Of a DNA stretch of 54,016 nucleotides, positions 6,301 through 50,829 are shown piece after piece (positions within the stretch are counted from its first letter, which is position 1; each line of letters begins with the position of its first letter). The stretch spans positions 1 through 54,016 of the IMG/VR virus record IMGVR_UViG_3300009093_000056; one strand, given 5' to 3'. Origin of the DNA: a virus. The notes under the pieces were generated by a model, which was given only the letters and a program-made list of their open reading frames with translations, did no database searches and had not been told where the DNA came from. The translations under genes were made by a program, and so were the position numbers.

Positions 6301-6306
6301 CGACGA

Positions 6307-6711: not shown

Positions 6712-6721
6712 TGTTTTCTCC

Positions 6722-10324: not shown

Positions 10325-10336
10325 CTAAGGCACTCC

Positions 10337-10855: not shown

Positions 10856-10860
10856 CTAAA

Positions 10861-23365: not shown

Positions 23366-23923
23366 TTACGCGTCGCAGGTCGGGTTCCAACTGTAGTGAA
23401 TGCGGACCGGTACGATCGCGATCCCTTCCGCCGATTGCTGAGTGCCGCCGCCGGTGGCCGTCGTCCAGACGCGTTCGTTCGTGATGCTCCCGGCCCCGCC
23501 GGGCATCTCTAGTCCGTACCAGTAGTCCGTCACGACGATCTGGGTCATCAGGATCACCTTCACGTTTCGGCGCAGTTGGTTGCGCATCTTCCGAGCGGTG
23601 TACTTGTCCGTCGCGAGGCACGTGATGTAGAGCGGCACGGTGAGGAGGCGTAACTCGACGCGCCCGGCCCCGGATTGCACTTCGAACTCCTCGTCGTCGG
23701 TCGCTTCCAGTCCGCGCGTCCCGACGTAGATACCCGGACTATGCCCCACGCCATCCGTGTCGTGCGACTTGTCGAAGAGGTTCACATAGCCTGCTGTCGG
23801 TGTGTCCCCGAGCGACTCGCGCTTGACGCCCGTCCAGCCAGGGGCATAAGAATTCCCGCCTGCGTAAAGGCGGGAATCGGCAGCGAGGATCGTTAGCAGT
23901 TTTTCGCTTATCTTCTGGATCAT
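23366..23923 (-). CDS. Tail terminator / minor tail protein candidate
   Basis: 185 aa from the ATG at 23923, ATGA overlap with the gene upstream. It has an alpha/beta layout: N-terminal helix (QKISEKLLTILAADSRLY), then strands (VELRLLTVPLYITCLATDKY), a helix ARKMRNQLRRN, and strand VKVILMTQIVVTDYWYG. A single N-terminal helix followed by a beta sheet is the fold of tail terminators (gpU-like), which sit at this position. Confidence 0.55.
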   Translation of the reverse strand: MIQKISEKLLTILAADSRLYAGGNSYAPGWTGVKRESLGDTPTAGYVNLFDKSHDTDGVGHSPGIYVGTRGLEATDDEEFEVQSGAGRVELRLLTVPLYITCLATDKYTARKMRNQLRRNVKVILMTQIVVTDYWYGLEMPGGAGSITNERVWTTATGGGTQQSAEGIAIVPVRIHYSWNPTCDA

Positions 23924-24261
23924 TGAGTAGTCAGCACCACGAGAACCGTAACCGCTGCGAATGTGTTCCCGACGTGGTGGGGGATCATGCCCCTTACCAC
24001 GCCCGTCCATCCGTCGAGCGTCCGCTTGATCTCAGAACCGTTCGAGAGCAGGTATGGGCTTGCGAGCGCACTCGCCTGGAACCGTATCTCGTAGCTCTCT
24101 TTGTTGTATTCATTCTCGCTGAGGAAGGTTTGAATGCGCTCCATCCCGGCTTCCGTCCACACAGCAGGAACTGCGGCCGAACCATTAATGGTTGTCAGAC
24201 AGCCCTTCTGCTTGATGCGCTTCGTCGCGAGCCGCTTCGCCTTCGCCGCAGAGATGCCCAT
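23920..24261 (-). CDS. Head-tail joining protein candidate
   Basis: 113 aa, small and beta-rich after a basic N terminus (ISAAKAKRLATKRIKQKG). Strands NKESYEIRFQASALA, GSEIKRTLDGWTGVV and NTFAAVTVLVVLTTQ fit a stopper or joining protein. It is between the connector candidate at 24263 and the tail terminator candidate at 23366, as in most siphovirus neck modules. Confidence 0.5.
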   Translation of the reverse strand: MGISAAKAKRLATKRIKQKGCLTTINGSAAVPAVWTEAGMERIQTFLSENEYNKESYEIRFQASALASPYLLSNGSEIKRTLDGWTGVVRGMIPHHVGNTFAAVTVLVVLTTQ

Positions 24262-24262
24262 G

Positions 24263-24979
24263 TCAGCTCATCCTCTTGCCCGCTGCAATGCGCTTGAGTT
24301 TATCGTTGCCACGGCTTCGGTAGGCCATAATGACGTTTGCGAAATTCTTCTGAAGCTGCGGCACGCTCGCGGAGTTCATCCAGTTCTTAGCGCCCCCGCT
24401 CGTGTCAACCTCAAAACTCCCGATCTTCAGCGACTCGCCAGCGCCGTCCAACCCCAGGTCCTGATACCGCAGGATGCGTGCCGTGCACTCGTCGAGAATG
24501 GCCTGCGAAACGTCGTTCGGAAGCGTCGCCGCGAAGCCCCACGTCGTCGTGACGCTGATGTTCTGGATGCCGAGCGCAAAGATGCCCGAAAGCCCGTAGG
24601 AGGCCCCGAGGATCGCGCCCGACGACTGCGGACGGATGAGAGTGTTATGGCCGCGATTGTAGCCGTTGTACTTCAAGAGCACGTCGGGATAGGCAGCGCC
24701 GTAACAGGTCACGGTGAGTGGCGTGCCCGGAACGATGTCGTCCACTGGTAGTTCAGGATAGCCATTGCCGTCGAAAATGCGCGTCTCGGTCGTCGGAACG
24801 AACTGCCTCCCTGTGCCGCCCGCCCCGTGCAGTCCGACCGGCGCTTGCAGTTCACCGAGCACCTGCACGAGCACGCGCTCCGCCTGCACCCCCACCCACG
24901 TCTGATCGAGGTCTGGGTCCTGGATGTGGACCTCAAGCCCGATTTCCGAGACGTAGGGTATGTTCAGCGAATCGGGCAC
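24263..24979 (-). CDS. Head-tail connector candidate
   Basis: 238 aa from the GTG at 24979 (AGAGGTAGAACC upstream), overlapping the glycosyltransferase-like gene by 16 nt. It has an early beta segment (IGLEVHIQDPDLDQTWVGV), a middle with VPTTETRIFDGNGYPELPVDD typical of head-tail connector proteins (the 'TRYFDG.G...LPVDD' pattern common to gp6/gp7-like connectors), and a helical C terminus. The role is adaptor between portal and tail. Confidence 0.65.
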   Translation of the reverse strand: MPDSLNIPYVSEIGLEVHIQDPDLDQTWVGVQAERVLVQVLGELQAPVGLHGAGGTGRQFVPTTETRIFDGNGYPELPVDDIVPGTPLTVTCYGAAYPDVLLKYNGYNRGHNTLIRPQSSGAILGASYGLSGIFALGIQNISVTTTWGFAATLPNDVSQAILDECTARILRYQDLGLDGAGESLKIGSFEVDTSGGAKNWMNSASVPQLQKNFANVIMAYRSRGNDKLKRIAAGKRMS

Positions 24980-25983
24980 GGTTCTACCTCTTCCAGCCAC
25001 GGATACACGGCGTTCAGGAAGTCGTCGAATTCGGTGTCAACGCCCATATACTTCATGCGCTCGCCTCGCATCAGGAACCGCGTGTAATAGCTCGTGATGA
25101 ACTTCGACGCCATGTTCCCGACGCAAAACGCCTTCTGCTTCTGGATCACCGACCACAGCGCGACGTTGTTCGGCGTGCTGATGACCGCATCGCACCGCTC
25201 GGAGAGCGCGAGCATCTCCATGTTTCCCGGCGTCTTACCGATCATGTTCACGAGCCGGTCGTTCTCACAGAGTCGGTCGATGGGCTGTAATCCGGTCACG
25301 ACGTAGGTATGCGGCGTCGTCAGAAGGAGGCGCTCGATCGCTGCCTTCCAGTGCGGCCAGTGGTTCTGAGAAGTCTCGCTCCACGTGCTTACCGGATGGA
25401 TGTGGATTACTTTTCCGGGGCCGTCGAGACCGTTTTCAATGCTCGCGTTCCGAGCCCACCGTCGCGCGCTCTCGGGCAGTTTCGCGTCATGCCAGAGTTG
25501 CACCGCCTGTTTGTGGAACCACTTCATGTTGATGTGGGTCTGCGTGACTTTGCACGGATCTGGCAGGTTCGGCTCGATCGGTTGAATGACTGCAAGCCAA
25601 TCGGCAGGTTCCGTGCCAGGGCGAGCGGCAATCTGCCAGAACCTCGGATATACGTCCACGCCGGTGATCTTGACCGCGATCACGTCGCAAACAAACTCCT
25701 GTTCACGAAACCAATCCGCGATCGAAGGGTCGGGGCCAACGTAGAGCACATTGCACAGCGGTTGCCCTGTGTGCTTGAGCATGGCTTTCATAACGCCCGC
25801 ACACATAAAGGCATCGCCCCAGTGCCCGAACGCCGTCGTCCACGTGATCGGTCGCTCGGGTAGATCGACGCCTCCCATAAAACTCTCGACGAGTTCGATG
25901 TCGTCGGTCATAAACTGGTTGCAGCCGGGGCAGAGTGGCGTTTCCAGCGTCCATCGGCACTGCGAGCAGGTATATTGAGCCAT
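24964..25983 (-). CDS. Heptosyltransferase-like glycosyltransferase with N-terminal zinc ribbon
   Basis: 339 aa. Residues 6-21 are a zinc ribbon (CSQC at 6-9, CPGC at 18-21). The body is a two-domain GT-B-like protein: FGHWGDAFMCAGVMKAML at 52-69 recalls the 'GDvl.a.p.l..L' start of GT9 enzymes, and IHIHPVST (193-200) with HWPHWKAAIERL (208-219) recalls their 'i.i.pG....K.WP...w..l' core. GT9 enzymes transfer heptose or related sugars. It sits between major capsid and connector genes. Fusion to a zinc ribbon is unusual. Confidence 0.6.
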   Translation of the reverse strand: MAQYTCSQCRWTLETPLCPGCNQFMTDDIELVESFMGGVDLPERPITWTTAFGHWGDAFMCAGVMKAMLKHTGQPLCNVLYVGPDPSIADWFREQEFVCDVIAVKITGVDVYPRFWQIAARPGTEPADWLAVIQPIEPNLPDPCKVTQTHINMKWFHKQAVQLWHDAKLPESARRWARNASIENGLDGPGKVIHIHPVSTWSETSQNHWPHWKAAIERLLLTTPHTYVVTGLQPIDRLCENDRLVNMIGKTPGNMEMLALSERCDAVISTPNNVALWSVIQKQKAFCVGNMASKFITSYYTRFLMRGERMKYMGVDTEFDDFLNAVYPWLEEVEPCPIR

Positions 25984-26285: not shown

Positions 26286-27254
26286 TTACGCGGCGGTCTG
26301 GATCTGGACGCCGTGGGTCGGTCGCATCATCGTGTAGCCGTACAGGACATCCAGAGTCAGGACGTGCGCGCCCTGGAGGTGCTGGTAGGAGTGCATGAGG
26401 CGCAGAGAAATCCCGCTCTCGGGATCGGTGATGACCGTCGCCTGCACGCCAAGGTTGCCGTCCGGGTTCTCCAGTGGACGAGAGGCGAACAGTATCGCAT
26501 CCTCCGAGAAGAACGCGTTCCTGTCGTAGAGCGGGCTGGCGGCGTTCGGGATGAGCTGCGTCACCGCGAGTTCGAAGTTGTACAGCTTGCCGAGCGCGCC
26601 CGCCATCGTAAACGGACCGGCCCCACTCGCGCCGCCGACCTGCGCGTTCGTGATGTCGTTGGACACACCGAGCGAGTCGTAGCGCACGAGCCGGTCGATC
26701 TGGAAGAGCGCCTGCGCCTGGCTGACGCCGCAGATGCCGTACTTCTTCATGCTCGCGGGAACCTGCGCGGTCACGAGGTACCCCCACGCTGTGATGATGT
26801 TCGCTTCCGTGATGTTGCCCGCGTTGACAATCGTGCCGCCCGTGAAGGAGGTCACGAGGCTCAACAGATCGACATCGATCTGTTCTGCCAATGCGATGCA
26901 CGCATCCTCGACATACCCCTGGATCACGTTCTGATTGGCCGTCGCGATTGCGCGCGACTCCACGCCGAACGTGACTTCCTTGTGCTTGTTGAGTGTCAGG
27001 TCAACGGTCGAGGAAGAGGGGTTCTGAACCGTGTAGTTCTGGTTCTCCGCCTTGTCGTTGACCGAGAGGCTGCCGCGCTTCGGCAGGTGCAGGGTCTGCC
27101 CGACGTTGAACTTCTGCGTGCTGTCGAGATCGGTGTCCCGAGTAACACACTTCTGGATTGTCAGGTAGTTGCGCAGTCGTCCGAGTGCGACGTTCAGCCA
27201 GACTTCGGGGATGAACCCGCTGGCTTGAGAAGTCGTGATGTTGGTATTTGCCAT
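26286..27254 (-). CDS. Major capsid protein (P22 coat-like / HK97 fold)
   Basis: 322 aa, GGGAGAGTAATCGGAC before the ATG. The opening SGFIPEVWLNVALGRLRNYL, then VGQTLHLPKRGSLSVNDKAEN, and VTFGVESRAIATANQNVIQGYVEDACIALAE split over residues 95-125, follow the P22 coat family (gp5-like) common in siphoviruses, in which 'fvpe.ws..l...l.....' is followed by 'G.tv.ip' and a long spine helix. The C-terminal GVQATVITDPESGISLRLMHSY fits a P domain end. Downstream of a scaffold protein, as expected. Confidence 0.9.
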   Translation of the reverse strand: MANTNITTSQASGFIPEVWLNVALGRLRNYLTIQKCVTRDTDLDSTQKFNVGQTLHLPKRGSLSVNDKAENQNYTVQNPSSSTVDLTLNKHKEVTFGVESRAIATANQNVIQGYVEDACIALAEQIDVDLLSLVTSFTGGTIVNAGNITEANIITAWGYLVTAQVPASMKKYGICGVSQAQALFQIDRLVRYDSLGVSNDITNAQVGGASGAGPFTMAGALGKLYNFELAVTQLIPNAASPLYDRNAFFSEDAILFASRPLENPDGNLGVQATVITDPESGISLRLMHSYQHLQGAHVLTLDVLYGYTMMRPTHGVQIQTAA

Positions 27255-27281: not shown

Positions 27282-27307
27282 AAAAAAGCCCCGATCGCTC
27301 GGAGCCT
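27282..27307 (-). terminator. Terminator directly before the capsid gene
   Basis: Minus strand GCTCCGA-GCGA-TCGGGGC with one U-G pair, extendable by two pairs, followed by TTTTTTG (27282-27287). It lies 30 nt upstream of the capsid start and after the scaffold stop. There is no room for a separate promoter, so it would attenuate the capsid message or require antitermination. Confidence 0.6.
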
Positions 27308-27358: not shown

Positions 27359-27952
27359 TTAGCGGTTGATGCGCCCTTCGCGCATCGCCGCCATGATGTC
27401 TTTCTCGTTCGCTCTAAAAAACACGGGGTCTGAGAGCTGCTCCTTGGTGTAAGTCGCGCCCTTCGGCCCCTGGTCGTTCGTCGGGTTGGTGGGAGTGCCC
27501 ACCTTCGGCCGCGCCTTCGTGAAACCTTTCTGCACAAGGTCCTCGGCGTCAGCACGGATAGCCGCCTCGTCAGTCCCGATGAGGCGCGGGATCATCTCGT
27601 CGCGCAGGTTGAACTCGCGGCCTATCTTGTCGCGTAGGGCGTTCATTCGGAACCCCTCGACTTCTGCGGCAAGTTGGTCGCGCTCTTCCTTGATGCGGGC
27701 TTCGTCGGAGAGCTTCGCTTTACGCGCCTCTTCCGCTGCCGCCTTCGACTCTTCGTCGCGACGCTTGTAGGCTTCGTTTTCACGGCGAAGGGCTTCGAGT
27801 TCTGCCTTCCGCTTTTCCTCACGAGCCGCATACGCCTCGCGCGCTCGCTCAGCTTCCGTCTTGACAACTGCCTCGGGTTCCTGCCCGGCAGATTCATCAA
27901 CCGTCTCCGCCGTGGTGTCTTCAGCGGGATTCGCTACTTCGAGATCGGCCAT
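27359..27952 (-). CDS. Scaffold protein
   Basis: 197 aa immediately before the capsid gene. Acidic Ala/Glu/Thr-rich start (AEDTTAETVDESAGQEPE), a continuous coiled coil at about residues 32-98 (REAYAAREEKRKAELEALRR), then a small basic region and the end TYTKEQLSDPVFFRANEKDI. This composition and position fit the head scaffold. Its 'DP.FF..N..DI..A...GRI' C terminus is seen in many phage scaffold proteins. Confidence 0.8.
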   Translation of the reverse strand: MADLEVANPAEDTTAETVDESAGQEPEAVVKTEAERAREAYAAREEKRKAELEALRRENEAYKRRDEESKAAAEEARKAKLSDEARIKEERDQLAAEVEGFRMNALRDKIGREFNLRDEMIPRLIGTDEAAIRADAEDLVQKGFTKARPKVGTPTNPTNDQGPKGATYTKEQLSDPVFFRANEKDIMAAMREGRINR

Positions 27953-28417: not shown

Positions 28418-28615
28418 TTACTTCTGCGCTTTCATCGCCGCCGCAGTCCCGGCGTCCTGCGGCCCCGTCTTGCTCGGCCCTGCAGGAGCATCGCCTGCCC
28501 CTGCCACGCCGCCTTTGTTTCTTAGCGCCGCCTGCGTACCCGCCTCCAGAGTGCCCGTAGGTTGCCCCGCAGTCGCCGCGTTCGGATTGCGGTTCGCTCC
28601 GTCAGTGATTGCCAT
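28418..28615 (-). CDS. Small Ala/Gly-rich protein
   Basis: 65 aa, ATG preceded by AGGTTAAACAGTT. Low-complexity composition (NPNAATAGQPTGTLEAGTQ, GGVAGAGDAPAGPSKTG) and no cysteines or membrane helix. It overlaps the end of the gene at 28522 by 94 nt in another frame; one of the two ends may be misread. Appearance is of a small virion-associated disordered protein. Confidence 0.45.
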   Translation of the reverse strand: MAITDGANRNPNAATAGQPTGTLEAGTQAALRNKGGVAGAGDAPAGPSKTGPQDAGTAAAMKAQK

Positions 28616-29043
28616 AACTGTTTAACCTTTCTGATTTGGTTCGTGCCGATATGTCGCCACGAAGGTATTTCGTAGGCTGGCACATCGGCCAACGCCCATA
28701 CGTGAAGTGTCAGGATGATGCGCATGAAAAACCATCGCCATGCGTTCACGACGATAAGTGCCGTTTTATGCAACATCCACCGGTACGGCCACGGTGTGAC
28801 GCACATGTAAAGAGCGTCTGCGTACGCCATTCGCTCTTCCAGAAGTCGCCAGTCAAGGCCCATCATTCCGATCTTCTTCGGGAACGCTTTGCAATCTAGC
28901 GAGATGTGTCTTAACGCGTAATATGAAATGGCGATAGGTGCTCGCAGGTCGCCTTCAATGCGGACAGGAATGTGATGATGCACGTTTGCCCGCAAAGGGT
29001 CAGGAACGGCTTCCATAACGATCTGACAAGTCTTCATGGTCAC
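28522..29043 (-). CDS. Hypothetical protein in the glycan cassette
   Basis: 173 aa from a GTG that overlaps the stop upstream (GTGA); an ATG at 29037 is an alternative. It has HHHIPVRIEGDLRAPIAISYY near the start, a hydrophobic stretch (ALIVVNAWRWFFMRIILTLHV) at about 95-115, and a very Arg-rich C terminus (RTRRLRGNLRALWRRVRRRR) lying over the next gene. Possibly a membrane-associated enzyme or cofactor. Family not recognised. Confidence 0.5.
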   Translation of the reverse strand: MTMKTCQIVMEAVPDPLRANVHHHIPVRIEGDLRAPIAISYYALRHISLDCKAFPKKIGMMGLDWRLLEERMAYADALYMCVTPWPYRWMLHKTALIVVNAWRWFFMRIILTLHVWALADVPAYEIPSWRHIGTNQIRKVKQLWQSLTERTAIRTRRLRGNLRALWRRVRRRR

Positions 29044-29195
29044 GGCTTCTTCTTCGACTTTCGGTTTTTCGCCTTGGGAGGCGTTGTACGCGCCTTAATC
29101 TCGCGCATCCCCCATTGAAATAGTTCTGTTGCAGCGAGGCTCAGAACAGCGATTAGAACAGCCTCGGTTATCTGCTTCTTGCCATTAGCCTGCAT
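29040..29195 (-). CDS. Small membrane-associated protein
   Basis: 51 aa. The ATG follows the preceding TAG without a gap and GAGGTGGG is upstream; the stop overlaps the next start (GTGA). One helix (EAVLIAVLSLAATELFQW) and a very basic tail (NRKSKKKP). Too short for standard calling, supported by the coupling at both ends. Function unknown. Confidence 0.55.
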   Translation of the reverse strand: MQANGKKQITEAVLIAVLSLAATELFQWGMREIKARTTPPKAKNRKSKKKP

Positions 29196-30227
29196 CTATC
29201 CCACCTCATCCTGTTCTCGAAACAACCCTAAATCGAGTCCCGTCGGCCTGTTCCAATCGTGCGCCGCCACGGTATCCAGCACATACTGCGCCGTCGCTCG
29301 CTCGGTGAGGTGCGTCATGCAGTGGTCGTAACCGCGTTCGTAGATGCCGAACGACCGTTCCGGGTCGGCAAGTGCGGAGTGCAATTTCTGGCAAACATCC
29401 GTCCCGAGGAACTCCTCACCGTCGCTTTCGACATCGTAGGCGACGGACGTCACACCATCTTCTAAGGGCGCGCGCGTGCGAATCGACAGCGGCCCTTGCA
29501 GGAGGAGCGTTCGCACGAGAACCTCGGTCATCCGAAACGAACCGGAACCGTAGCCGTCGAAGGAAACGCTTGCCTTCGCGGATCGCGTGCGGCTGAAGAA
29601 CTCGTCTTGCGGCATCCTCGGAACCTGCTCGCCTGCCTGGTCATTCAGGACGCGGATTTCCGATTTTACGTGACACCCACGCAGCGCGTCCGTGATGTGC
29701 ATCCGCCACGGGTGCGATGCGCCCCAGCTTACGAACAAATCCTGCTCGCGGCGTAAGTACTCCTCGCGGTCAGGGCGATCGTGACAGACCGAGAATGCGT
29801 AGAGCGGGTAGTCGATCGGATGGTACTCGCTCGGAAACTCGATGTACTTGCTGTGCTCGCGCAGGAAGTAGGGGAACGACTTGCCCTGCAAGAACCGCCT
29901 CAGTTTCTCCTGCTCACCGCAATCCTTCGTGTCGTGGCTCATGCTTCCCGGCGCAAAAGCGTTCGCGTAGTGCCGGATGATGTTCGGGAGCCGCTTGTAG
30001 TACCCGTACTCAGCACAATCGACGAATGCGATCGGCACGCTATCGTCCGGGAACGTCGGGTAGATGTATTCGCGGGTGTGGGCGGTCTGATTAAAAATCA
30101 GGACAAGATCGTAACCATTGCCGGGATTGAAGTACGTGACTTCGTGGCCGAGTTCTTGCAGGCCCCGGAAGAGACCGACTTGCAGCGGGCTCCCGCCGAG
30201 TGTCGAGAGGTAGAGTGCGATCTTCAA
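29196..30227 (-). CDS. Putative GT-B glycosyltransferase
   Basis: 343 aa, TTG start in a TTGA overlap with the radical SAM gene. The N terminus KIALYLSTLGGSPLQVGLFRGLQELGHEVTYF, read in two parts, has the GT-B start with a GGSP loop and helix. LIFNQT, an FVDCAEYGYYKRL core, and a late GYGSGSFRMTEVLV segment resemble CgeB/YkvP-like glycosyltransferases ('g.gs.R..E.......'). It is adjacent to the radical SAM and PLOD-like genes, so it should take part in the same glycan pathway. Confidence 0.5.
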   Translation of the reverse strand: MKIALYLSTLGGSPLQVGLFRGLQELGHEVTYFNPGNGYDLVLIFNQTAHTREYIYPTFPDDSVPIAFVDCAEYGYYKRLPNIIRHYANAFAPGSMSHDTKDCGEQEKLRRFLQGKSFPYFLREHSKYIEFPSEYHPIDYPLYAFSVCHDRPDREEYLRREQDLFVSWGASHPWRMHITDALRGCHVKSEIRVLNDQAGEQVPRMPQDEFFSRTRSAKASVSFDGYGSGSFRMTEVLVRTLLLQGPLSIRTRAPLEDGVTSVAYDVESDGEEFLGTDVCQKLHSALADPERSFGIYERGYDHCMTHLTERATAQYVLDTVAAHDWNRPTGLDLGLFREQDEVG

Positions 30228-31726
30228 GCGTTCACCAACTGCCTCTCGGTTGTCCTCAAGATGTTCGGCGGCAGCGGCCCCGACTGACCCATGCTGTGCT
30301 CGTACGAAAGCCCGACGCCGCCCGCGTTGTACGGAATTCCGAGCGCCGCCCGCACTTCCGCCTCCAGCGCGTCGCGCAACTCCACGATCCGCTCAGCGCT
30401 CAGATGATCGGTGAAGACGTAGGACACGTAATCGCCAGGCACGCCTTTGTAGTACTCCGCCACGCGGTTAAAATCGACCTCGTAGGCGTGGAGACGGTCG
30501 CCGGACTTCGGCGCGGTGTACGTCCATGTTCCCGGAGCGGTCTCGGTCGCCTCATCGTAATACGGCGTTCCTGGATAGGTGCTGATCACCGTGCAATCAA
30601 AATCGTCGGGCCGCTCTTGCAGAAGCCACTGCTTCGTCGCTCCGATCGTCTCGGCGCTCTCCCCGGCGTGCCCGATGGACATTAGGGCTTTCACCTTCAG
30701 CCCGTGCCGCCTCGCAATCGCCATGCACTCGCTGTTCTGCTCGCGCGTCGCCTTCTTCTGGATGTTCTCCAGGATGCGCGGACTACCGCTCTCGAAGCCG
30801 ATCAGTATCCACCGGAACCCGGCGCGGACCATCGCTCGCGCTTGCTCGTCGGTGAAGAGGTTACTCTTGACGAAGCCGCGAAGCCGAAACTCGACGCCCA
30901 ATTCCGCCTGCAGTGCCGCAATCGCGTCCATCAGTTCGACCATGCTCTTGCTGACGTTGAGTTCGTCGTCGTAGAACATGAAGCCGGTAACGCCGTACAG
31001 CTCGTAGAGGTGCCGCACTTCCGCGACCACATTCTCGGTCGAGCGGGTGCGGATGCGTCGCAGCATCGGGGAGTTGCGGCCCCCACAAAAGGCACACATG
31101 TACGGGCATCCGAGCTGTCCGATCAGCGACGTTGCGCGGTGGCTCTCGATCGCGTAATGATAGCTCTCCATGTCCACGAGGTGACGCGCCGGGAGCGGGA
31201 GTTCGTTGAGCCGGTCGTTCGTCAGGAACAATCTGCTCGCGGCATCGTCGCCGTCGATTAACTTCGGCGCATCCGGCATGAGTGCATGAAAGATGCTATC
31301 TTCGCCGTCACCTGCCACCAGCACATCGAACATTTCTGCCAGAACGTCAAACGCACGAACCGCGCGCCCCGTGATCTCATGCTTCACCTCTCGCTTCCGT
31401 GCTGCATTTACGAGCGTGACGTGCGGACCGCCGAGGATCACCTTCGCATCCGGCCGTGTTTCTCTCAGAACCGCTGCAATCTTGGCTGTGGCGGGCATCT
31501 GCGGGGTCGTCGCGGTCAAACCGAACACCGTCGCGTTCGTGCGGCTCGCGTGGTCCCGAACGGCCTCCTCGTAGTTCTCGACACCATTTAGGTCCAAATG
31601 CTCGACGGTGTATCCGTCTGCCTCCAGAACCGCCCCGACCCGGAGTATGCCGAGCGCAACAAAAACCCGAGCGTCTAAGAGGAAGACGCTCGGGGGAGTG
31701 ATGAGACAGATTGTCGGCTTATTCAC
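30224..31726 (-). CDS. Cobalamin-binding-type radical SAM enzyme
   Basis: 500 aa from the GTG at 31726 (GTGA overlap); a longer frame to 31738 is possible. Residues 1-145 form a B12-binding-like Rossmann domain beginning PTICLITPPSVFLLDARVF and with ILGGPHVTL at 97-105. The radical SAM core has CPYMCAFC (Cys207, Cys211, Cys214), the CxxxCxxC cluster site. The DxHxxG cobalamin-ligand motif is not evident. Such enzymes make unactivated-carbon methylations or ring changes. A strong hairpin lies in its 5' coding end. Substrate unknown; sugar or peptide of this cassette inferred. Confidence 0.8.
   Translation of the reverse strand: MNKPTICLITPPSVFLLDARVFVALGILRVGAVLEADGYTVEHLDLNGVENYEEAVRDHASRTNATVFGLTATTPQMPATAKIAAVLRETRPDAKVILGGPHVTLVNAARKREVKHEITGRAVRAFDVLAEMFDVLVAGDGEDSIFHALMPDAPKLIDGDDAASRLFLTNDRLNELPLPARHLVDMESYHYAIESHRATSLIGQLGCPYMCAFCGGRNSPMLRRIRTRSTENVVAEVRHLYELYGVTGFMFYDDELNVSKSMVELMDAIAALQAELGVEFRLRGFVKSNLFTDEQARAMVRAGFRWILIGFESGSPRILENIQKKATREQNSECMAIARRHGLKVKALMSIGHAGESAETIGATKQWLLQERPDDFDCTVISTYPGTPYYDEATETAPGTWTYTAPKSGDRLHAYEVDFNRVAEYYKGVPGDYVSYVFTDHLSAERIVELRDALEAEVRAALGIPYNAGGVGLSYEHSMGQSGPLPPNILRTTERQLVNA
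31661..31694 (-). terminator. Perfect terminator-like hairpin inside the radical SAM gene
   Basis: Minus strand CCCGAGCGTCT (31684-31694) and AGACGCTCGGG (31666-31676) pair over 11 bp, loop TCCTCTT, followed by TTTTTG. It lies in codons about 11-22 of the radical SAM gene and encodes conserved residues of the B12 domain start. Confidence 0.6.
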
Positions 31727-32253
31727 TTGTGGACCCATCGGAGCGTGACGACCGTCGTCCCTTCGGGTGCGGGGCCGAAAACTTCATCGACCGCCCGCTT
31801 CACGCCCTGAAAGTGATCGTGGCCGTAGTCGTGGAAGACGATCACGCCGCAGGGCCTCACTCGCGGCCACCACCTCGCGATGTCGGCGACCACATCCTCG
31901 TACGTGTGCATCGCATCGAGGAAGATCATATCGTAGTCGTCGGTCAGGCATCCCGCCGCCGTCTCGCTCGAATAGAGGCGGTATTCGACGTTCAGGAACC
32001 GCGCCGTGGCCGTCCGGAAGTCGTCGAGCGTCTGAACGCTCTCCATCTGTTCCTGCCCGGCGGAATTGGCCGAAAACGTGTCGCAGCACATCAGCGATTT
32101 CGCGGTGATCGCCATGCAGAACGCCGACAGCCCCTTGAACGAGCCGATTTCGAGCACGTCGCGGTTTGCAGCCAGTTCCGCGAGCTTGTCCATCTCGCTC
32201 GGATGGAGGAACCCTTCAATCCCTATTGATTTCGTCGTCTCAAGTAGGTCCAA
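31723..32253 (-). CDS. Class I SAM-dependent methyltransferase
   Basis: 176 aa, TTG start following the PLOD-like gene. Motif I VLEIGSFKG at residues 33-41, an acidic strand-end CCDTF at 56-60, then YDMIFLDAMHTYEDV at 107-121 and GVIVFHDYG at 136-144. This matches the Methyltransf_24 type, which includes sugar O-methyltransferases and cephalosporin hydroxylase-like proteins. The conserved LDAxH and HD residues suggest a metal-assisted O-methyl transfer. Overlap (GTGA) with the radical SAM gene. Confidence 0.75.
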   Translation of the reverse strand: MDLLETTKSIGIEGFLHPSEMDKLAELAANRDVLEIGSFKGLSAFCMAITAKSLMCCDTFSANSAGQEQMESVQTLDDFRTATARFLNVEYRLYSSETAAGCLTDDYDMIFLDAMHTYEDVVADIARWWPRVRPCGVIVFHDYGHDHFQGVKRAVDEVFGPAPEGTTVVTLRWVHK

Positions 32254-32254
32254 T

Positions 32255-32983
32255 TTAAGACAGTCCCCATTTCTTCAGAAACTTCGGCATGAGCTTGTCC
32301 TTAGACCCGCCATTAAAATGAAAAACACCGGGTGTCGTCCCGGTGATCCGGTTACGAATACGTTCGCCTCGCGTATCGAACTCTTTCACGAACGACGCGC
32401 TCAGGCACTGCGCCAGCTCGCACGCGGTATCGACGACCATATCGACCGGCTGCGCGATATAGGCGATCTGGCCCTGTTCCTGGTCGTCGGGGTAGATCCA
32501 TCCGGTATCGTCTGCGTTTCGCCGGTCAAAACCGAGCGCATCGAGGTTCTGCCACTCTAGGCACGCGAGCATCTTCTCGGCCGGGCCACAAAAGAAGCCG
32601 TTGTTCAAGAACCGCCACGGCGACCCGGTATCCGGGAAGTGGTCGGCAAGATCAGTGCGCGGCCAGCACGCTTTTTCTGCGTTGAACACGATCGCATCGC
32701 CGTAGAGAGACGCGGCGCGCTCGTCGATCGACTGCGGGTGCTCGCAGAACACGATGTCCCAGGCGTCGCACACAATAATCCGATCCGCTTTGTTCTTTCC
32801 AGCCCGCAGCCAGTTGCGCAGCAGGTTCGGCTTGGTAATCAAACCGCCCCACGGCTCGTTCATCCCTAAAATCACAGGCTTGAACTGGAAGCGCTTCAGG
32901 CTTTCGAGGTAGGTCGAGAAACGATAGTACGGCTCCGTTGGCACGCGGCTCGAAACCGACACAACTTGCACCGATTTAACCAA
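32255..32983 (-). CDS. PLOD-like glycosyltransferase, copy 2
   Basis: 242 aa if the TTG at 32983 is used (GGAAGG 7 nt upstream); the codon overlaps the previous stop. DRIIVCDAWDIVF at about 68-79 carries the DxxD/DxD metal site, and WRFLNNGFFCGPAEKM at 123-138 follows the pattern of PLOD/procollagen-type glycosyltransferases ('fLNsGl.iG.a'). DDQ at 163-165 is the usual later acidic motif. Clearly paralogous to the gene upstream. It should transfer a UDP-sugar such as galactose or glucose. No signal peptide. Confidence 0.75.
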   Translation of the reverse strand: MVKSVQVVSVSSRVPTEPYYRFSTYLESLKRFQFKPVILGMNEPWGGLITKPNLLRNWLRAGKNKADRIIVCDAWDIVFCEHPQSIDERAASLYGDAIVFNAEKACWPRTDLADHFPDTGSPWRFLNNGFFCGPAEKMLACLEWQNLDALGFDRRNADDTGWIYPDDQEQGQIAYIAQPVDMVVDTACELAQCLSASFVKEFDTRGERIRNRITGTTPGVFHFNGGSKDKLMPKFLKKWGLS

Positions 32984-33683
32984 GTGCGAGCCTTCCGTAG
33001 AACGCGGGACCGCAAATCTCCTTCGCGCCGCCGTTGAAGTGGAAGACGCCAGGGGCCGAACCCGCGATTTTGTTCGTGATTTCGTCTCCCGAGAGGTCAA
33101 ACTCGCTCAAATCACACGCCGAAAGTGTCTGCGCGAGCCTGCACTGCGTGTCAACGACCATTTCGACCGGCTGTTTGGCAAAAAGCGCCTGATATTCGCC
33201 CTGATCGTTAGGATAGGGACCGCCAGGCGGGTCAAAACCGATGCTTTCGATGTCCATCGCGTTCAAAAGTGCGAGAATTTGGCTTGCGGGACCACACATG
33301 AATCCGGAATTCAAAAACCGCCACGGACTGCCATCGTCCGGGAAGCAGTCGCGCAGGTCTTCGCGCGGCCAACAGCCCTTTTCACCGTTAAACACCACTG
33401 CGTCCCCGAACCACTCGGCGCACCGGTCGCCGATCCCGTGCGGATGCTTCGCGAAGATGATGTCGAAGGCGTCACAGACGATCAGTCGGTCACTCGTGTT
33501 GTGCCCGTTCCGCAGCCATTCGCGAAGAAGGTAGGGCTTCGTCATCAATCCTTGCCACGTGCCGTTCATTCCGAGGACCGTCGGCGTCTCAGCGAAGCGC
33601 GCGAGGCTTTCGATGAACAGGTCGAAGCGATAGTACGGCTCTGCGGGAACCCGGCTCGCTACGGTAACAACTTGTGCGTTCAT
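32976..33683 (-). CDS. PLOD-like glycosyltransferase, copy 1
   Basis: 235 aa, ATGA overlap with the methyltransferase gene. SRVPAEPYYRFDLFIESL near the start, DRLIVCDAFDIIF at 65-77 (metal site), WRFLNSGFMCGPASQ at 121-135 and NDQGEYQALF in the second half. These are the landmarks of PLOD/COLGALT-type glycosyltransferases. The downstream paralogue shares order and motifs, so this is a tandem duplication that has diverged, probably giving two specificities. Confidence 0.75.
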   Translation of the reverse strand: MNAQVVTVASRVPAEPYYRFDLFIESLARFAETPTVLGMNGTWQGLMTKPYLLREWLRNGHNTSDRLIVCDAFDIIFAKHPHGIGDRCAEWFGDAVVFNGEKGCWPREDLRDCFPDDGSPWRFLNSGFMCGPASQILALLNAMDIESIGFDPPGGPYPNDQGEYQALFAKQPVEMVVDTQCRLAQTLSACDLSEFDLSGDEITNKIAGSAPGVFHFNGGAKEICGPAFYGRLALG

Positions 33684-34441
33684 GCCACCCTCGCCGACAC
33701 AGTTTCGTGCCCTGAAGTCCATCGACCGAACTTGATCGCCTCAAAAGCCGCCCATTCCAACATCATAGTCACGTGCTTGACACTGTGGACGTAGACATGC
33801 TCGGCAGGGCAGAAGAACCGCTCTGTGACTTCCTCGCCCGGACTGACCATCGGAAGCATGAGCAGCAACTGCCCGCCATCCTTCAGCAGCCGTTTGCATT
33901 CGGTCAGGAACGGACCGGGATCGTGAATGTGCTCAAAGAGGTCGAGCGCGACGATCAGAGAAAACGAGCCGGGATTGATCCGCGCCGTAACCTCCGGGAA
34001 GTACCCGAACATTAAGTGCGCTTCCGGCCCCGCCGTTTCCTGGATGTACTCGCGGTACGAGCGATCAACGTCGATCCCGAAGACAGGCGTAAACCCGGCA
34101 TCGTGAAGCCTGCGAAGGAGGTTCCCAGGAGCGCAGGCGATTTCAAGCGCGCCCCCGCCCGCTCCCTCGATCTGCCCCATCACGTACTCGTTCTTCGTGA
34201 CGCCGCACTCGTGGTGACTGTCTACGTTGAAGGACTGCTCGGCGATTGTGGAACGACCATTCTCGTGCGTCCAGTAGTCACGCTCGTAGATCGCCGCAGG
34301 GTCCACTGGAGCCATGCTGACGTACGTCCCACACAGCGTGCAGATTTGATAGTCCTGCACGCTGCACGGGCACAGATTGTGTGCGCATGGGATGATCGGT
34401 GTACGCGGGTCTTCGGCTATCGGCGCTGCTTTTCTCCTCAT
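33680..34441 (-). CDS. SAM methyltransferase with N-terminal zinc module
   Basis: 253 aa, ATGA overlap. Cysteines at 19, 24, 26, 34 and 37 (CPC and CTLC) form a zinc-binding head, as in class I methyltransferases acting on nucleotide-linked or terminal sugars (13-type C-methyltransferase relatives). Motif I ALEIACAPGNLL at 98-109, FGIDVD at 121-126, LIVALDLFEHI in the middle and LLKDGGQLLLMLP as motif III region. Coupled to another methyltransferase upstream and a glycosyltransferase downstream, fitting sugar methylation. Confidence 0.75.
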   Translation of the reverse strand: MRRKAAPIAEDPRTPIIPCAHNLCPCSVQDYQICTLCGTYVSMAPVDPAAIYERDYWTHENGRSTIAEQSFNVDSHHECGVTKNEYVMGQIEGAGGGALEIACAPGNLLRRLHDAGFTPVFGIDVDRSYREYIQETAGPEAHLMFGYFPEVTARINPGSFSLIVALDLFEHIHDPGPFLTECKRLLKDGGQLLLMLPMVSPGEEVTERFFCPAEHVYVHSVKHVTMMLEWAAFEAIKFGRWTSGHETVSARVA

Positions 34442-34986
34442 CCTGGCACCTGCGGTTCCGGGACCGGCTTTCTGCCGATGTACAGGATACTGTAGCAGTC
34501 CGGGTTGTCATCTACGAAGTCGTCGCGGATCGCTTCGTAGGTATGCAGGTAGGCGGTCAGTTCTCCGACGTGGCTCTCGTGTCGGTGATTCCCGTTGTCG
34601 CAGTCGTAGGGCGGGTTCGCCTCCAATCCGCGCAGGACGTTGCGCCGAAAACGCAACCGGTCCGGGACCGCAATCAGCATGTACCCGCCCGGCTTCAGCA
34701 CCCGATCCCACTCGCGCAGGACCGGCCCCCAGTCCGCGAAGTCTTCGAGGAGGTGGCTCGCGTGCACGAAGTCGAGGGTGTGATCCTTGAACGGCAGGTC
34801 AGTCGCGTCGCCCTGGTAGTGGATGTTGCCACGCTCCCGGTTCGGGTTATACGACTTGAACTGCTCGTCGGGGAGGTCGAGCTGGATCGCCCACGGCGCG
34901 ATTGGAGACCCGTCGCTGCCAAGATCGACGCCGTTCCCTTGAACGTACTCGGTCACAAGATGACGATGCCTGTCTGTCTCGCTCAT
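34438..34986 (-). CDS. Class I SAM methyltransferase
   Basis: 182 aa, ATGA overlaps at both ends. NGVDLGSDG near residue 18, a long gap, then YQGDATDLPFKDHTLDFVH and EWDRVLKPGGYMLIAVPD. These are the Methyltransf_11 landmarks, with the 'D..dLpf.d.slDfv.s.h.leh' segment often seen in LPS- or glycan-linked methyltransferases. It follows the small coiled-coil protein and precedes a second methyltransferase. Confidence 0.75.
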   Translation of the reverse strand: MSETDRHRHLVTEYVQGNGVDLGSDGSPIAPWAIQLDLPDEQFKSYNPNRERGNIHYQGDATDLPFKDHTLDFVHASHLLEDFADWGPVLREWDRVLKPGGYMLIAVPDRLRFRRNVLRGLEANPPYDCDNGNHRHESHVGELTAYLHTYEAIRDDFVDDNPDCYSILYIGRKPVPEPQVPG

Positions 34987-35174
34987 CGTCCCGTCTCGAC
35001 TTTCTGCAGACGGGCTTCCGTCAACAGTATTGGGAATAACGTCTCCATCTCAAGTAACTGAGTGTAGCGCTCCCTCGTGATAGTTACGCCGACCACTCCT
35101 TCAACCAGTTTGGAAAGTCGTTCGACTTCACGCTCCAATTCTGACAATCTGTCGTTCGTACTTGGTTTTCTCAT
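34983..35174 (-). CDS. Small coiled-coil protein
   Basis: 63 aa with GGAGGCGGCGACTG before the ATG. A coiled coil (NDRLSELEREVERLSKLVEG) followed by ITRERYTQLLEMETLFPILL. No catalytic motif. Being placed between the isomerase and a methyltransferase, it may be an assembly or dimerisation partner, but no evidence beyond position. Confidence 0.6.
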   Translation of the reverse strand: MRKPSTNDRLSELEREVERLSKLVEGVVGVTITRERYTQLLEMETLFPILLTEARLQKVETGR

Positions 35175-35191
35175 CAGTCGCCGCCTCCTAT

Positions 35192-35884
35192 TCAGCCCTT
35201 GATCCTCTCCATCAGCCCGAGAAACAGCATGTGAAGGATCACCATGTGAACGTCTTCCGCTTGCTGCATACTCTCGGTGGGAACGTGGATCGAGATGTCA
35301 ACCGTCTTCGCCAGCACGCCGCCGTCGAAGCCTGAAAGTCCGATCGTCGTCACACATTCACTCTCACTCGCGACCTGTACGGCGTTGAGAACATTCGCGC
35401 TGTTCCCGCTCCCCGACACGGCCACCAGGACCGCCCCGCATTCGTTCCACGTTGCCACTTGCGGGGCAAAGACGTTCGACCATGCGCTGTCGTTGGCCCA
35501 TGCGCTCACAAGCGGCGTAGCGTCGTTCAGACAGATCGCCTTCAGCGGCTTGCCGGTCTCTAGGCCGATATTCTTTTGCAGATCATTAACGATGTGGGAA
35601 CATGATGACCCGCTACCGCCGTTGCCGCAGAACATGACGACTTTGTTGTTTTGCCAGGCTCCGTAGAGTGCGTCTACAGCCTTAATCACCTCGAATATGT
35701 CTATCCACTGTACAAGCGTCGCAACCTGCTCGCTGTACTTCACAAAGCGCCGAACAATCGGACTATCTGTGCCGTACTGTCCGTATCCCTCGTGCTGAGA
35801 CATCTTGGTGCACTCTTGCAATTTCTGTTTGAGGCGTACTCGTTTGTCGCCCCTCAATTCCTCCGAAATCTCTGGTAAAGCCAT
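35192..35884 (-). CDS. GmhA-like SIS-domain sugar-phosphate isomerase
   Basis: 230 aa from the ATG at 35884, AGGAGGCGGCGGAACG upstream; the longer frame overlaps the portal stop. The SIS domain is clear: FCGNGGSGSSCSHIVNDL at 85-102, AVSGSGNSANVLNAV at 155-169, IGLSGFDGG at 181-189, VPTESMQQAEDVHMVILH at 201-218. These match sedoheptulose-7-phosphate isomerase (GmhA), including the distal His. GmhA makes D-glycero-D-manno-heptose 7-phosphate. No other heptose-pathway gene is here, so the host would supply later steps. Confidence 0.8.
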   Translation of the reverse strand: MALPEISEELRGDKRVRLKQKLQECTKMSQHEGYGQYGTDSPIVRRFVKYSEQVATLVQWIDIFEVIKAVDALYGAWQNNKVVMFCGNGGSGSSCSHIVNDLQKNIGLETGKPLKAICLNDATPLVSAWANDSAWSNVFAPQVATWNECGAVLVAVSGSGNSANVLNAVQVASESECVTTIGLSGFDGGVLAKTVDISIHVPTESMQQAEDVHMVILHMLFLGLMERIKG

Positions 35885-35907
35885 CGTTCCGCCGCCTCCT
35901 ACACGGC

Positions 35908-37458
35908 TCACGCGCTGATGTTACTCCCCTGGCTCGCGTCAACAAGCAGCGAACTCGCTTCGCCTGCAGTATCCGCACTCGTCGGGGTCATCCCCTTCGC
36001 CTGCATCGCGATGATCTTCGCTTCCGTCTCCTGCTTCTGCGTCAACGACTCCGCCTGAACGGTCTTGATCTCGTTCGGCGGAATTTTCTCCGCCCGCGCT
36101 ACCCGCTCGACGCCGCGAGCGTGCGGCAGGAGGTGGTTGTTGACCTGGCTTATCGTCCGGTCGGTCGTTGCCTGCAAATCCCTCGGCGTCTCTGCGAAGT
36201 ACGTGGGCCAATCGCACGAGACTTCCATCTCCGGGTCCCACGTCCGAATTTGTGGAAATCCGCCCATGTTCTGCAGGGCGGTCAGGACCTGGTGAAAGAA
36301 GAGGCACAGGCCAGACGCGCCCCAGAGTTCGCGCTTGCGATCGGCGGTCGCGATCGTCCGGGAAAACGTCATCGCGAAAGCCAGGCTCGTCATGTTCCCT
36401 TTGTTCGTGATCGCGGCAGGGTCCACCCGCGAAAGGCCAACGCCCCGGTACAGCAAATCCTCCATCCGGTCGGCGTATGATCCGCTGTATGCGCGCGCCG
36501 CCCCGGAGGGTTCCAGCAGTTTCGCGTCGGCCCGGACATCCGGGTTATCGTTACGAATGCTCAGTGGTTCACCGGGCAGCAGCGGCCCCTCGTTATCGAC
36601 ATCTGCATTCGTGACCACCAGGTTCGGCTCGCTGTGCATCTGGTTGCCGCGATCTTCGCCGTGCATCGTGAGGGCGATACGATCGATCAGGCGAAACACG
36701 CGCCAGCAGTCGCCTTCTCCGAGCGGATTACCGGCCACGGCTTTGTTGCGAATGACCGTGATCGGAATGACGCCGAGCGGGTTCTCCTCCTCGCTCTCGA
36801 TCTGCCAGCGTCCTGGGTCGTCGGTGTCGCCAAGGTGCGTCCTGTAGCCGGGCAGGGAACCGATCCCCGCAATATCCGACGCGCCTGCAGGCAGCGGCAC
36901 GTACTTGACGAACTTCTCGTCTGTCCACTCCTCGCGGTAGTAGTACCAGTTGCCGTCGGTAAGGCTCCGGTACGGGTACTGGATGCGCGCCATAAGTAGG
37001 TTCAGGCGGTCGTGCGGGTCGATCCAGACGCGACACTCGGTCGGGATCTTCAAGAAACTGATCTTGACCGGGCAAGCCTTGTCATTCGGATCGACCATGA
37101 ACTTCGCCGCGAGCGCGCCCTGGTTGCCTGCGTCCTCCGCGAGCGGGATGTACTGGCTCGGCAATCCGTTGCGCTTGATGATCGTCTGCAGGAAGTCGTC
37201 GAGGTTCGGGTCGTCCGGGACCGAGAAGGTCGGGACGCCGTTCCTGAACGTGAATTCCGCGAGTTCCGAGACCATCATGCCCACGTAGGGTAGGGGCGTC
37301 GGCTGCGGCCCCTTTTCTCTCGGCCACTGGCTCGTGCCGAACGCGTGGGTCGGGTACGGGCGCATGTTATAGTAGTCAAACGACTGCCAGGCGGCGAGTG
37401 CGGTTTCCAACTGAAACGGGGCAGGCGTCGTCGTGTTTATGAGATCGTTACCGGTCAC
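35908..37458 (-). CDS. Portal protein (SPP1 gp6-like)
   Basis: 516 aa, GTG start with AGAAGGGG 6-7 nt upstream. The N-terminal half has PYVGMMVSELAEFTFRNGVP typical of gp6-like portals; a helical stem region follows (LIDRIALTMHGEDRGNQ), then VDPAAITNKGNMTSLAFAM and RKRELWGASGLCLF. It is directly after the large terminase gene. This is the ring through which DNA passes. Confidence rests on order and on the portal-type segments. Confidence 0.85.
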   Translation of the reverse strand: MTGNDLINTTTPAPFQLETALAAWQSFDYYNMRPYPTHAFGTSQWPREKGPQPTPLPYVGMMVSELAEFTFRNGVPTFSVPDDPNLDDFLQTIIKRNGLPSQYIPLAEDAGNQGALAAKFMVDPNDKACPVKISFLKIPTECRVWIDPHDRLNLLMARIQYPYRSLTDGNWYYYREEWTDEKFVKYVPLPAGASDIAGIGSLPGYRTHLGDTDDPGRWQIESEEENPLGVIPITVIRNKAVAGNPLGEGDCWRVFRLIDRIALTMHGEDRGNQMHSEPNLVVTNADVDNEGPLLPGEPLSIRNDNPDVRADAKLLEPSGAARAYSGSYADRMEDLLYRGVGLSRVDPAAITNKGNMTSLAFAMTFSRTIATADRKRELWGASGLCLFFHQVLTALQNMGGFPQIRTWDPEMEVSCDWPTYFAETPRDLQATTDRTISQVNNHLLPHARGVERVARAEKIPPNEIKTVQAESLTQKQETEAKIIAMQAKGMTPTSADTAGEASSLLVDASQGSNISA

Positions 37459-37470: not shown

Positions 37471-39009
37471 TCAAGCAAACGTAAACTTATTCCGAACCTT
37501 GCCGCTCGCCCGCTCGACCCGGTTCACCTGTGGCGGAAGTGCGAACGCCAGATTGAGCGCGTCCGCGTCGTCCGGGCTTCTCTTGATCCGCTTCTTCGTG
37601 TCCGCCTTCTTTTCGACTTCGCGACGGCCCTGGCTGTCCACCTTCCATGTCGGCGACATGCACTGGGAGCGCAGGAGGGACTTGGAGTGGGGGGTCAGGC
37701 GCGATAGGTCGAGGTCGCCCGCATCGGCTCTCTCGGCGACCGTAAACCACAACTCCGACCGCTTGTTCGGATAGTCCTTACGCGCAACTGCGTTGTTCGC
37801 GCTGTTGATTTCCTTGAAATCGTAGGGGCCGCGCAGGTCCACGACGCCTCCCTGAACGTCGTCGATCTGGCACTTGACCTGGTGCGGACTCTCACCCTTC
37901 GCGTGGAAGCGCTCCGCGAGCTGCTTGAGACGGCCAGCAATCTGCAGGTTATCCCAGCCGTTGTGCGTCTCGTGGTGCAGGACACAGCAATCGCGGCGCA
38001 CGATGAAGCTCGTGAAGTCGTCGCCGAAACGCGCCTTGTCGCACCCGATAAACGTCGTTCCTTCTTCCGGCAACTCCTGCTCGTGCATGGCTGCCTGCCA
38101 CGCCGCATCACTCCAGACCGAGGTTGCACCGGTAGACGGCCACCTGCCCAGCAACCGGCTCTCGCCGAGCGGCCCAGGCCGGTACCACGTCCCGCTCCCT
38201 TTCGGAAACTCGAAGTCCCGGCTCCTCTTGTCCTCGTGGCTGACCGGCTCGCACCACTCCCGGATGCGCCCCTCCACCCAGTCGAGGTCAACCGCCTTAG
38301 GGAAGGGCTTCGGCTTGCCTGCGAGTTCAGCGGCGATATTCGGGTGGTCGAGGCACGAGATGTCAATGACGTGCCACTTGCCGGAGCTGATGCATTCGTC
38401 GTACGCGACTGACGAGGTGTCGGTCGGATTGCAGAGCGCCAGCCAGTACGCGACATCCGAAGACATCATCGCCTCGCCCGCTATCCAGTAATCCGACTGG
38501 ATGCCCACGCACTCATCGTAGAGCAGGAATACCGCCTGCTCGTGCCGTCCCTGGAAAGCCGCGTCACTGGAGGCCGTCAAGCCCATCGCGACATGATCGG
38601 GGCTGCTCTCCATCCTCGGCGCTTTCGGCAACATGCAGTGACGGAGCGACGGCGGCCGCTGCAGTCGTATCTCTTTCCAGATGACATCGACCACAGAGTT
38701 CTTTGTCGGGGCCGTCGTGATGCACTGTCCGACCGGATAGGCGTCGTAGAACCAGTTCACGAGGCCGCCCGCAAGGTGGGACTTCCCTACACTGTGTCCG
38801 GCCTTGACCAGCACTCTCTTGTGCTTCAGGAGCGCCTCGACAATCTCGACCTGCTTCGGCCACCACACGACCTTCAGGACTTCACGCGCGTACGTCACCG
38901 GATCGGTCCGGTACTCCTGGCACGCGATGTCGGCCACGAGGCGCGACGAGAGGTCCGAGAACCACGATTGGGCGAGCGTGCGGCCGTCTTTTAGTGTGGC
39001 TGCTGGCAT
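37471..39009 (-). CDS. terL: Terminase large subunit
   Basis: 512 aa, ATG in a TGATG overlap. ATPase domain: Walker A GHSVGKS at 71-77, TTAPTKNSVVD at 98-108, Walker B FLLYDE at 161-166, and LALCNPTD at 190-197 as motif III. Nuclease domain: IGCDKARFGDD at 321-331, with Asp324 and Asp331 as metal ligands. The spacing and the 'CD.ARFGDD' motif are standard for the large terminase that cuts and pumps DNA. All late genes run downstream of it. Confidence 0.95.
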   Translation of the reverse strand: MPAATLKDGRTLAQSWFSDLSSRLVADIACQEYRTDPVTYAREVLKVVWWPKQVEIVEALLKHKRVLVKAGHSVGKSHLAGGLVNWFYDAYPVGQCITTAPTKNSVVDVIWKEIRLQRPPSLRHCMLPKAPRMESSPDHVAMGLTASSDAAFQGRHEQAVFLLYDECVGIQSDYWIAGEAMMSSDVAYWLALCNPTDTSSVAYDECISSGKWHVIDISCLDHPNIAAELAGKPKPFPKAVDLDWVEGRIREWCEPVSHEDKRSRDFEFPKGSGTWYRPGPLGESRLLGRWPSTGATSVWSDAAWQAAMHEQELPEEGTTFIGCDKARFGDDFTSFIVRRDCCVLHHETHNGWDNLQIAGRLKQLAERFHAKGESPHQVKCQIDDVQGGVVDLRGPYDFKEINSANNAVARKDYPNKRSELWFTVAERADAGDLDLSRLTPHSKSLLRSQCMSPTWKVDSQGRREVEKKADTKKRIKRSPDDADALNLAFALPPQVNRVERASGKVRNKFTFA

Positions 39010-50689: not shown

Positions 50690-50829
50690 GCCTCCCGCAA
50701 CGCCCTAAGCGCCGCCTCCTTTGGCCCCATTGCCGCCCGCTTCTTAACCGTCGCGGGCTTCTCATGGCGTACCGGGCCGGTGCCGAGGGTGGTTCGGATT
50801 TGGGTGATGTTGGGGTTGGGGTTTTTCAT
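50662..50829 (-). CDS. Small basic protein downstream of integrase
   Basis: 55 aa, ATGA overlap with the integrase stop and AAGGAGAATACCCAG before the ATG. KNPNPNITQIRTTLGTGPVR, then KKRAAMGPKEAALRALREAQ. A basic, helical C-terminal half. Coupling to the integrase suggests a recombination accessory role (excisionase-like function), inferred only. Shorter than typical gene cutoffs. Confidence 0.6.
   Translation of the reverse strand: MKNPNPNITQIRTTLGTGPVRHEKPATVKKRAAMGPKEAALRALREAQTSNHRQP

Follow-up and report, generated by a model that had tools for sequence, protein, structure and literature searches.

Why would a tailed phage keep enzymes of sugar transfer and methylation among the genes that build its head? 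The question is raised by the IMG/VR virus record IMGVR_UViG_3300009093_000056, whose positions 1-54,016 constitute the stretch of 54,016 nt analysed here (the window). The interval from portal to scaffold is occupied by a cassette, all of it on the minus strand and mostly joined by overlapping stop and start codons, which encodes a SIS isomerase, three class I methyltransferases, two PLOD-type glycosyltransferases, a B12-binding radical S-adenosylmethionine (SAM) enzyme (rSAM) and a GT-B-like protein. A preliminary description had recognised here a glycan and methylation cassette of coupled genes within the head operon, and this was borne out by Pfam and PHROG family scans of the window proteins, as well as by the overlaps, which were read directly from the letters. 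The reading that we favour, with slightly better than even confidence, is that of an exchangeable island for glycan synthesis, expressed together with the virion genes, that would decorate the virion, perhaps at the neck or tail.

Composition, recurrence and exchange of the cassette

The 5' bookend of the island is a SIS-domain sugar-phosphate isomerase, GmhA-like (35192..35911; SIS_2 1.5e-11, phrog_14703 1.8e-30), which could start either at a GTG overlapping the portal gene or at an ATG 27 nt further on (35884). Beside it stand a small conserved open reading frame (ORF; 34983..35174; 100% in L003, 51% in L002) and two class I SAM methyltransferases (34438..34986, Methyltransf_11 4.7e-14, with homologues at 60% in L061 and 39% in L081; 33680..34441, Methyltransf_23 2.3e-12). 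They are followed by a PLOD/LH3-type GT-A glycosyltransferase (PLOD1, 32976..33722, coupled start 33683; GT_PLOD 8.8e-24), a second enzyme of the PLOD/LH3 type (PLOD2, 32255..33100, likely start near 32983; GT_PLOD 5.5e-27), the third class I methyltransferase (31723..32253; Methyltransf_24 3.5e-17), the rSAM enzyme (30224..31738, coupled GTG start 31726; Radical_SAM 6e-22, B12-binding 1.7e-15) and a putative GT-B-fold glycosyltransferase, assigned to no family and named from a model (29196..30227). A 51-aa ORF (29040..29195) and a 173-aa protein with no family match (28522..29043; 94% in L003) complete the interval, and the 3' bookend, a 339-aa protein with a CxxC...CxxC N-terminus (24964..25983, minus strand), lies beyond the capsid gene. 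The overlaps are ATGA at 34983/34438 and at 33683 for PLOD1, GTGA for rSAM and again at 29043, and TTGA for the GT-B gene. The small proteins had been described beforehand as membrane or unknown proteins; those at 28522 and 29040 do hold one moderately hydrophobic stretch each, but it falls just under the usual transmembrane threshold.

Near-identical cassettes are found in L003/L014 (72.5 kb), L004 and L002. The ratio of non-synonymous to synonymous substitution rates (dN/dS) lies at 0.005-0.2 against these close copies in most genes of cassette and head, and at 0.11-0.18 in the core genes against the divergent homologues of L061 and L081, where dS is near saturation; the cassette genes are under purifying selection. 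Single genes are at the same time exchanged in place: L002 carries a swapped SIS allele, 57% identical over the core, between neighbours at 97-99%, and in L080/L084 the rSAM has 62% identity to its L061 counterpart, against 88-100% for most genes on either side.

Furthermore, a core of four genes (PLOD, Methyltransf_24, rSAM, GT-B) recurs in the same order in two further lineages, L061/L080 and L081, at 45-66% identity, with one extra gene ahead of rSAM in L081; the Methyltransf_24 gene (62% in L061, 59% in L081) adjoins a PLOD gene in both. In each lineage the core lies among late genes, on the strand of the structural genes, with a virion structural protein 4 kb downstream in L061/L080, and after the tape measure in L081. 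Just upstream of it L061 encodes a cytidylyltransferase-like protein (CTP_transf_like 1.2e-16), and the L081 phage has a GT9-like gene (L170, 8631-9704; PDB WaaC 9e-7) downstream of its portal and head maturation protease. The combination of enzymes, for which no phage example had been known to the preliminary description, is thus not unique to this phage.

In turn, the enzymes between the two bookends differ in some relatives. Searches with SIS and with the 24964-25983 protein retrieve the same viral records, L004 and L002 being fragments with one of the two, and among the relatives L173/L177 and L174/L178/L181 carry another island. SIS is 76-91% conserved in the phages with a different island, which is closed in L173/L174 by homologues of the 24964-25983 protein at 50-51%. 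These relatives share the tail module of the window (tape measure 48-74%, most other tail proteins 46-90%) and in terL, portal, scaffold and major head protein no similarity to the window can be detected. Their islands, placed between head-tail connector-like genes and tail genes, hold at least two methyltransferases, a GT2-like protein (accompanied in one case by another glycosyltransferase-like protein) and a radical SAM protein without a match to the rSAM of the window; these inner genes are named from sequence motifs, not from family scans, and for the GT2-like protein and the radical SAM protein of L177 PDB sequence searches gave no match. As far as such motifs can tell, there is a common design of isomerase, methyltransferases, transferases, radical SAM protein and conserved closing gene, with enzymes that are for the most part not homologous. 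Since the bookends go with the conserved tail module and not with the head, which is swapped, the target would be a neck or tail protein at least as readily as the capsid. Family-level gene identities, operon overlaps, conservation, recurrence and exchange are in this way directly established.

The enzymes and their relatives

The isomerase belongs to the SIS family and among PDB entries matches phosphoheptose isomerase structures from 2e-22; its identity as a curated GmhA is not upheld, given that it misses the NCBIfam equivalog cut-offs (109.3 against 276 and 98.3 against 209.45 bits). It shares with GmhA the fold family, the serine-rich SGSGNS loop, a metal-site histidine and the C-terminal histidine. 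At the zinc ligands of GmhA, which we take to be H61, E65, Q172 and H180, the alignments keep both histidines, but glutamate is replaced by aspartate and glutamine by glutamate.

Both PLOD-type proteins exceed the Pfam gathering cut-off of GT_PLOD (PF25342) by far (95.0 and 84.5 bits against 27), and PLOD2 matches human LH3 (1.4e-14) and mimivirus R699 (5.3e-10). They are 56% identical to one another, which is consistent with a tandem duplication. The Mn-binding DxxD and the gating tryptophan, whose roles in the LH3-type glycosyltransferase domain have been described (PMC9546862), are kept (DAWDIVF/DAFDIIF and AEKACWP/GEKGCWP), and an H-x-N-G motif is likewise shared with LH3 and R699. At the poly-Asp position of LH3 (Asp190/191) PLOD2 reads PDDQ, and PLOD1 and the L061 protein PNDQ, in an alignment to LH3 that is loose there. 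Unlike in the collagen hydroxylase/glycosyltransferase, no lysyl hydroxylase domain was found. Where activity has been measured for PLOD-type enzymes, in human LH3 and mimivirus R699, the substrate is the hydroxylysine of collagen, and hence a protein (PMC9546862). The window record contains no PF13640 match that would indicate a 2-oxoglutarate-Fe(II) oxygenase, nor does the window hold a long GXY run typical of a collagen-like substrate, and lysyl hydroxylation was rejected on both counts. With no hydroxylase partner found in the window, the linkage must therefore differ or need a host step. Among annotated phages, only distant PLOD-type proteins were found, in cyanophages and a marine virus; in addition, the viral loci L042 (~12700-13300) and L047 (~12600-13070) have a PLOD-like gene about 1.2 kb from an rSAM gene.

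The rSAM protein is above the Pfam cut-offs in both domains (79 against 29.5 and 57.3 against 32.1 bits) and has its cluster motif, CxxxCxxC, as CPYMCAFC. AprD4 is the nearest PDB entry (2.8e-20). AprD4, HpnJ, PhpK/BcpD and BchE have the same two domains and motif; the window protein differs from them in missing the cut-offs, and the named B12-rSAM equivalogs (PhpK, HpnJ, AprD4, BchE) are all missed by a wide margin (at best 106.6 against 600 bits). Its weak matches below the cut-offs include enzymes of sugar, lipid and antibiotic metabolism (AprD4, HpnJ, PhpK). The family, common to phages and many bacterial phyla, was found in 71 loci of viruses and in at least 80 of bacteria. In a tree of 149 sequences viral and bacterial members are interleaved, with at least 11 changes forced by well-supported branches and 20 by parsimony. 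Two cases were given little or no weight. The rSAM of Streptomyces phage SF3, a 31% match to a part of the protein, with an integrase nearby and a different context, was set aside as a comparison. That of L048, from a sugar locus, shows no difference in the aligned columns from that of L158, a contig of an Aurantimonas coralicida metagenome-assembled genome (MAG); this may reflect a wrong viral call, a wrong bin or a prophage, and L048 was counted as weak evidence only. Within the rSAM gene of the window, some 30-60 nt into the coding sequence, there is a strong terminator-like hairpin (31666-31694, minus strand; 11-bp stem, -21.9 kcal/mol, followed by TTTTT). L014 and L004 have it unchanged, in spite of an overall dS of 0.32 for the L004 rSAM, and it is absent from L061, L081 and L084. 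It is possibly an attenuator inside the head operon.

For the 29196-30227 protein, family scans gave no match. A structure model from an alignment of five homologues (predicted TM-score 0.77; predicted local distance difference test, pLDDT, 69.6; one poorly modelled stretch) has GT-B glycosyltransferases as its top PDB matches (1.6e-5), but with a low TM-score of 0.37 (~0.4), so that a GT-B glycosyltransferase is likely and not proven. Its homologues occur in L061, L084, L081 and the 343-kb phage L086, and none was found among annotated phages. L086 also has a second glycosyltransferase-like ORF (2652-3905), upstream of a gp21-type protease gene. The 24964-25983 gene, read at first as heptosyltransferase-like, is indeed conserved, but its assignment to GT9 had to be rejected after every method tried: Pfam, a PF01075 search of the record and a PDB sequence search gave no match, a profile comparison with a phage GT9-like protein gave E 0.06 and a probability of 0.9%, and the structure model (pLDDT 35) lent no support. 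The CxxC...CxxC N-terminus of this protein resembles a zinc ribbon.

As for the surrounding genes, family scans confirmed terL (37471-39009), portal (35908-37458), scaffold (27359-27952) and major head protein (26286-27254), all in the minus-strand late operon, which continues through a head-tail adaptor-like protein (24263-25000), a neck protein (23366-24010) and a tail protein (22094-23314); the tail genes, tape measure included, belong to the same operon as the cassette. Between scaffold and major head protein lies another minus-strand terminator-like hairpin (27286-27307), identical in L014 and L004. The portal has no match among annotated phages, and terL shows only 25-29% identity to actinophages, a Methanosarcinales-linked phage and others. 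An integrase gene (50826-51905) suggests that the phage is temperate.

Probable virion decoration and the alternatives

How would such an island work? We infer the sugar, its linkage, the order of the steps, the target and the benefit as follows. The isomerase would feed a sugar phosphate, possibly of the heptose type, into a nucleotide sugar with the help of the host; the two PLOD-type enzymes and the GT-B enzyme would assemble a short glycan; the three methyltransferases and the rSAM enzyme would methylate it, although the latter might instead deoxygenate. The product would be attached to a virion protein in the cytoplasm as the particle is assembled, and altered inner enzymes would result in an altered surface chemistry of the particle. 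A more specific version, which we put forward only tentatively, sees a fixed "glycotype" island between the conserved isomerase and a conserved protein of a new or unrecognised transferase type, where whole sets of glycosyltransferases, methyltransferases and rSAM would be exchanged, providing a C-methylated or deoxygenated, PLOD-linked glycan on neck, tail or capsid; phages would then have a protein-glycosylation system that switches in the manner of serotypes.

Decoration of the virion is argued for by the families and overlaps, the recurrence of the core on the structural strand, the swap between bookends and the purifying selection. It is argued for as well by the cases, for rSAM in several smaller phages, in which GT-B or rSAM genes touch head genes or are close to them. 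In L086 the GT-B homologue (10001-11002, 43% identity) lies directly downstream of a gp23-type major head protein. In L016 an rSAM homologue (5510-6937) separates the prohead protease, whose stop it overlaps, from the major head protein; in L052 rSAM precedes the major head protein, in L009 and L044 it is downstream of one, and in L069 it abuts terL. It also follows a portal-like protein without family match, near a confirmed terL, in L062 and L064. Finally, PLOD-type enzymes act on protein, and glycosylation of phage virions exists. Several observations weigh against this interpretation. In the large T4-like and jumbo phages rSAM is part of sugar islands that lie tens to hundreds of kb from terL, and in the 21 records with a recognisable terL the rSAM is no closer to it than expected by chance (Fisher p=0.90; p=0.29 in the 8 records below 80 kb). 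A general attraction of rSAM to head genes was rejected, and with the distances at chance level the family taken overall belongs to glycan islands and not to the head genes. Moreover, chromosomal rSAM homologues have surface-sugar neighbourhoods (GT2, GT4 and GDP-mannose dehydratase families), late operons carry unrelated cargo genes too, and no acceptor protein has been singled out. Of what was first proposed, a glycan and methylation cassette within the virion operon is well supported; decoration of capsid or tail by a modified sugar would be the likeliest reading, with no preference for packaging genes found in the rSAM family overall.

Would the glycan rather be destined for the host? A surface glycan remodelled late or in the lysogen, blocking superinfection or the re-adsorption of progeny, is a rather unlikely explanation, yet one that agrees with the temperate appearance of the phage, with the rSAM islands of large phages (PfkB kinase, RpiB-nucleotidyltransferase, cytidylyltransferase, epimerase, cupin and SIS genes), of a type tied to changes of the outer polysaccharide (PMC7824862), and with the chromosomal neighbourhoods just mentioned, in which SIS directly follows rSAM at two alphaproteobacterial loci. 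The preliminary description had named, as what would refute it, the same cassette in chromosomes as a surface-polysaccharide locus: rSAM does stand there beside sugar genes, but a PLOD or GT-B homologue was near it in none of the 80 chromosomal rSAM loci examined, and a GT-B profile matched nothing in 32 rSAM-bearing whole genomes or in 396 Acidobacteriota genomes, both being weak negatives for want of a positive control. Besides, the cassette is set into the late head operon, with overlaps to it, away from repressor and integrase, and lysis soon after late expression would presumably leave little time for a change of the surface. No Pfam or PHROG match to the GtrA flippase, the GtrB bactoprenol transferase or an integral-membrane Gtr was found in the cassette, and none of its glycan enzymes has a clear transmembrane segment, which fits a cytoplasmic protein acceptor and would fit peripheral envelope enzymes too.

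It is improbable that rSAM and the methyltransferases act directly on a virion protein by C-, N- or O-methylation, with glycosylation as a separate layer. B12-rSAM protein methylases do exist (TIGR04014, Mcr glutamine methylase), and in L016 and L052 rSAM stands alone between portal or protease and major head protein, with no glycosyltransferase seen near it; these are, however, fragments of only 10 and 6 kb, chromosomal and most viral homologues adjoin sugar genes, and the weak family matches of rSAM, none above cut-off, are to sugar, lipid and antibiotic enzymes. DNA hypermodification, with the transferases acting on modified phage bases, is very improbable: some phages do glycosylate bases and the GT-B model has a low-ranked fold match to the base glucosyltransferase 1y8z (E 7e-3), but the location is late and not early, no base-hypermodification enzyme is present among the window genes scanned by family, and the PLOD-type enzymes of known activity act on protein.

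Relation to known systems

Few phages have been shown to have glycosylated particles, a modification reported to alter the binding of antibodies. If virion decoration is correct, virion glycans would be a general and evolvable surface trait of tailed phages, as suggested by an island located within the virion operon, found again in unrelated phages and with its chemistry swapped between conserved bookends; it would also put names to concrete enzymes, a PLOD-type transferase without its hydroxylase and a phage B12-dependent radical SAM enzyme. The parts are known. Their composition and the bookended swapping appear to be new, no description having been found in the literature searched, nor a paper that connects B12 radical SAM enzymes with glycans of phages, within a coverage that is incomplete.

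Virion glycosylation in the F1 mycobacteriophages Che8 and Rita was reportedly treated by Freeman et al. in 2023. Their capsids are reported to be glycosylated, with a covalent glycan on the major capsid protein (PMC11256854). The likeness consists in phage-encoded glycosyltransferases. The differences are that the transferases of the F1 phage described there lie near the 3' end of the genome and that the text consulted reports no PLOD-type transferase or B12-rSAM (PMC11256854). In annotated actinophages no homologue of the GT-B, PLOD or rSAM protein of the window was found, except the distant rSAM of SF3. Lysogenic conversion by gtrABC is set apart by its hallmarks, GtrA, GtrB and an integral-membrane Gtr, which the cassette does not display. 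The sugar islands of cyanophages and jumbo phages, in turn, have been read as systems for the outer polysaccharide of the host (PMC7824862). They resemble the cassette in type, with epimerases, kinases, nucleotidyltransferases, transferases and methyltransferases, and the same rSAM family occurs in such islands; yet they lie away from terL, whereas the island of the window, without most of the nucleotide-sugar enzymes, is set inside the head operon.

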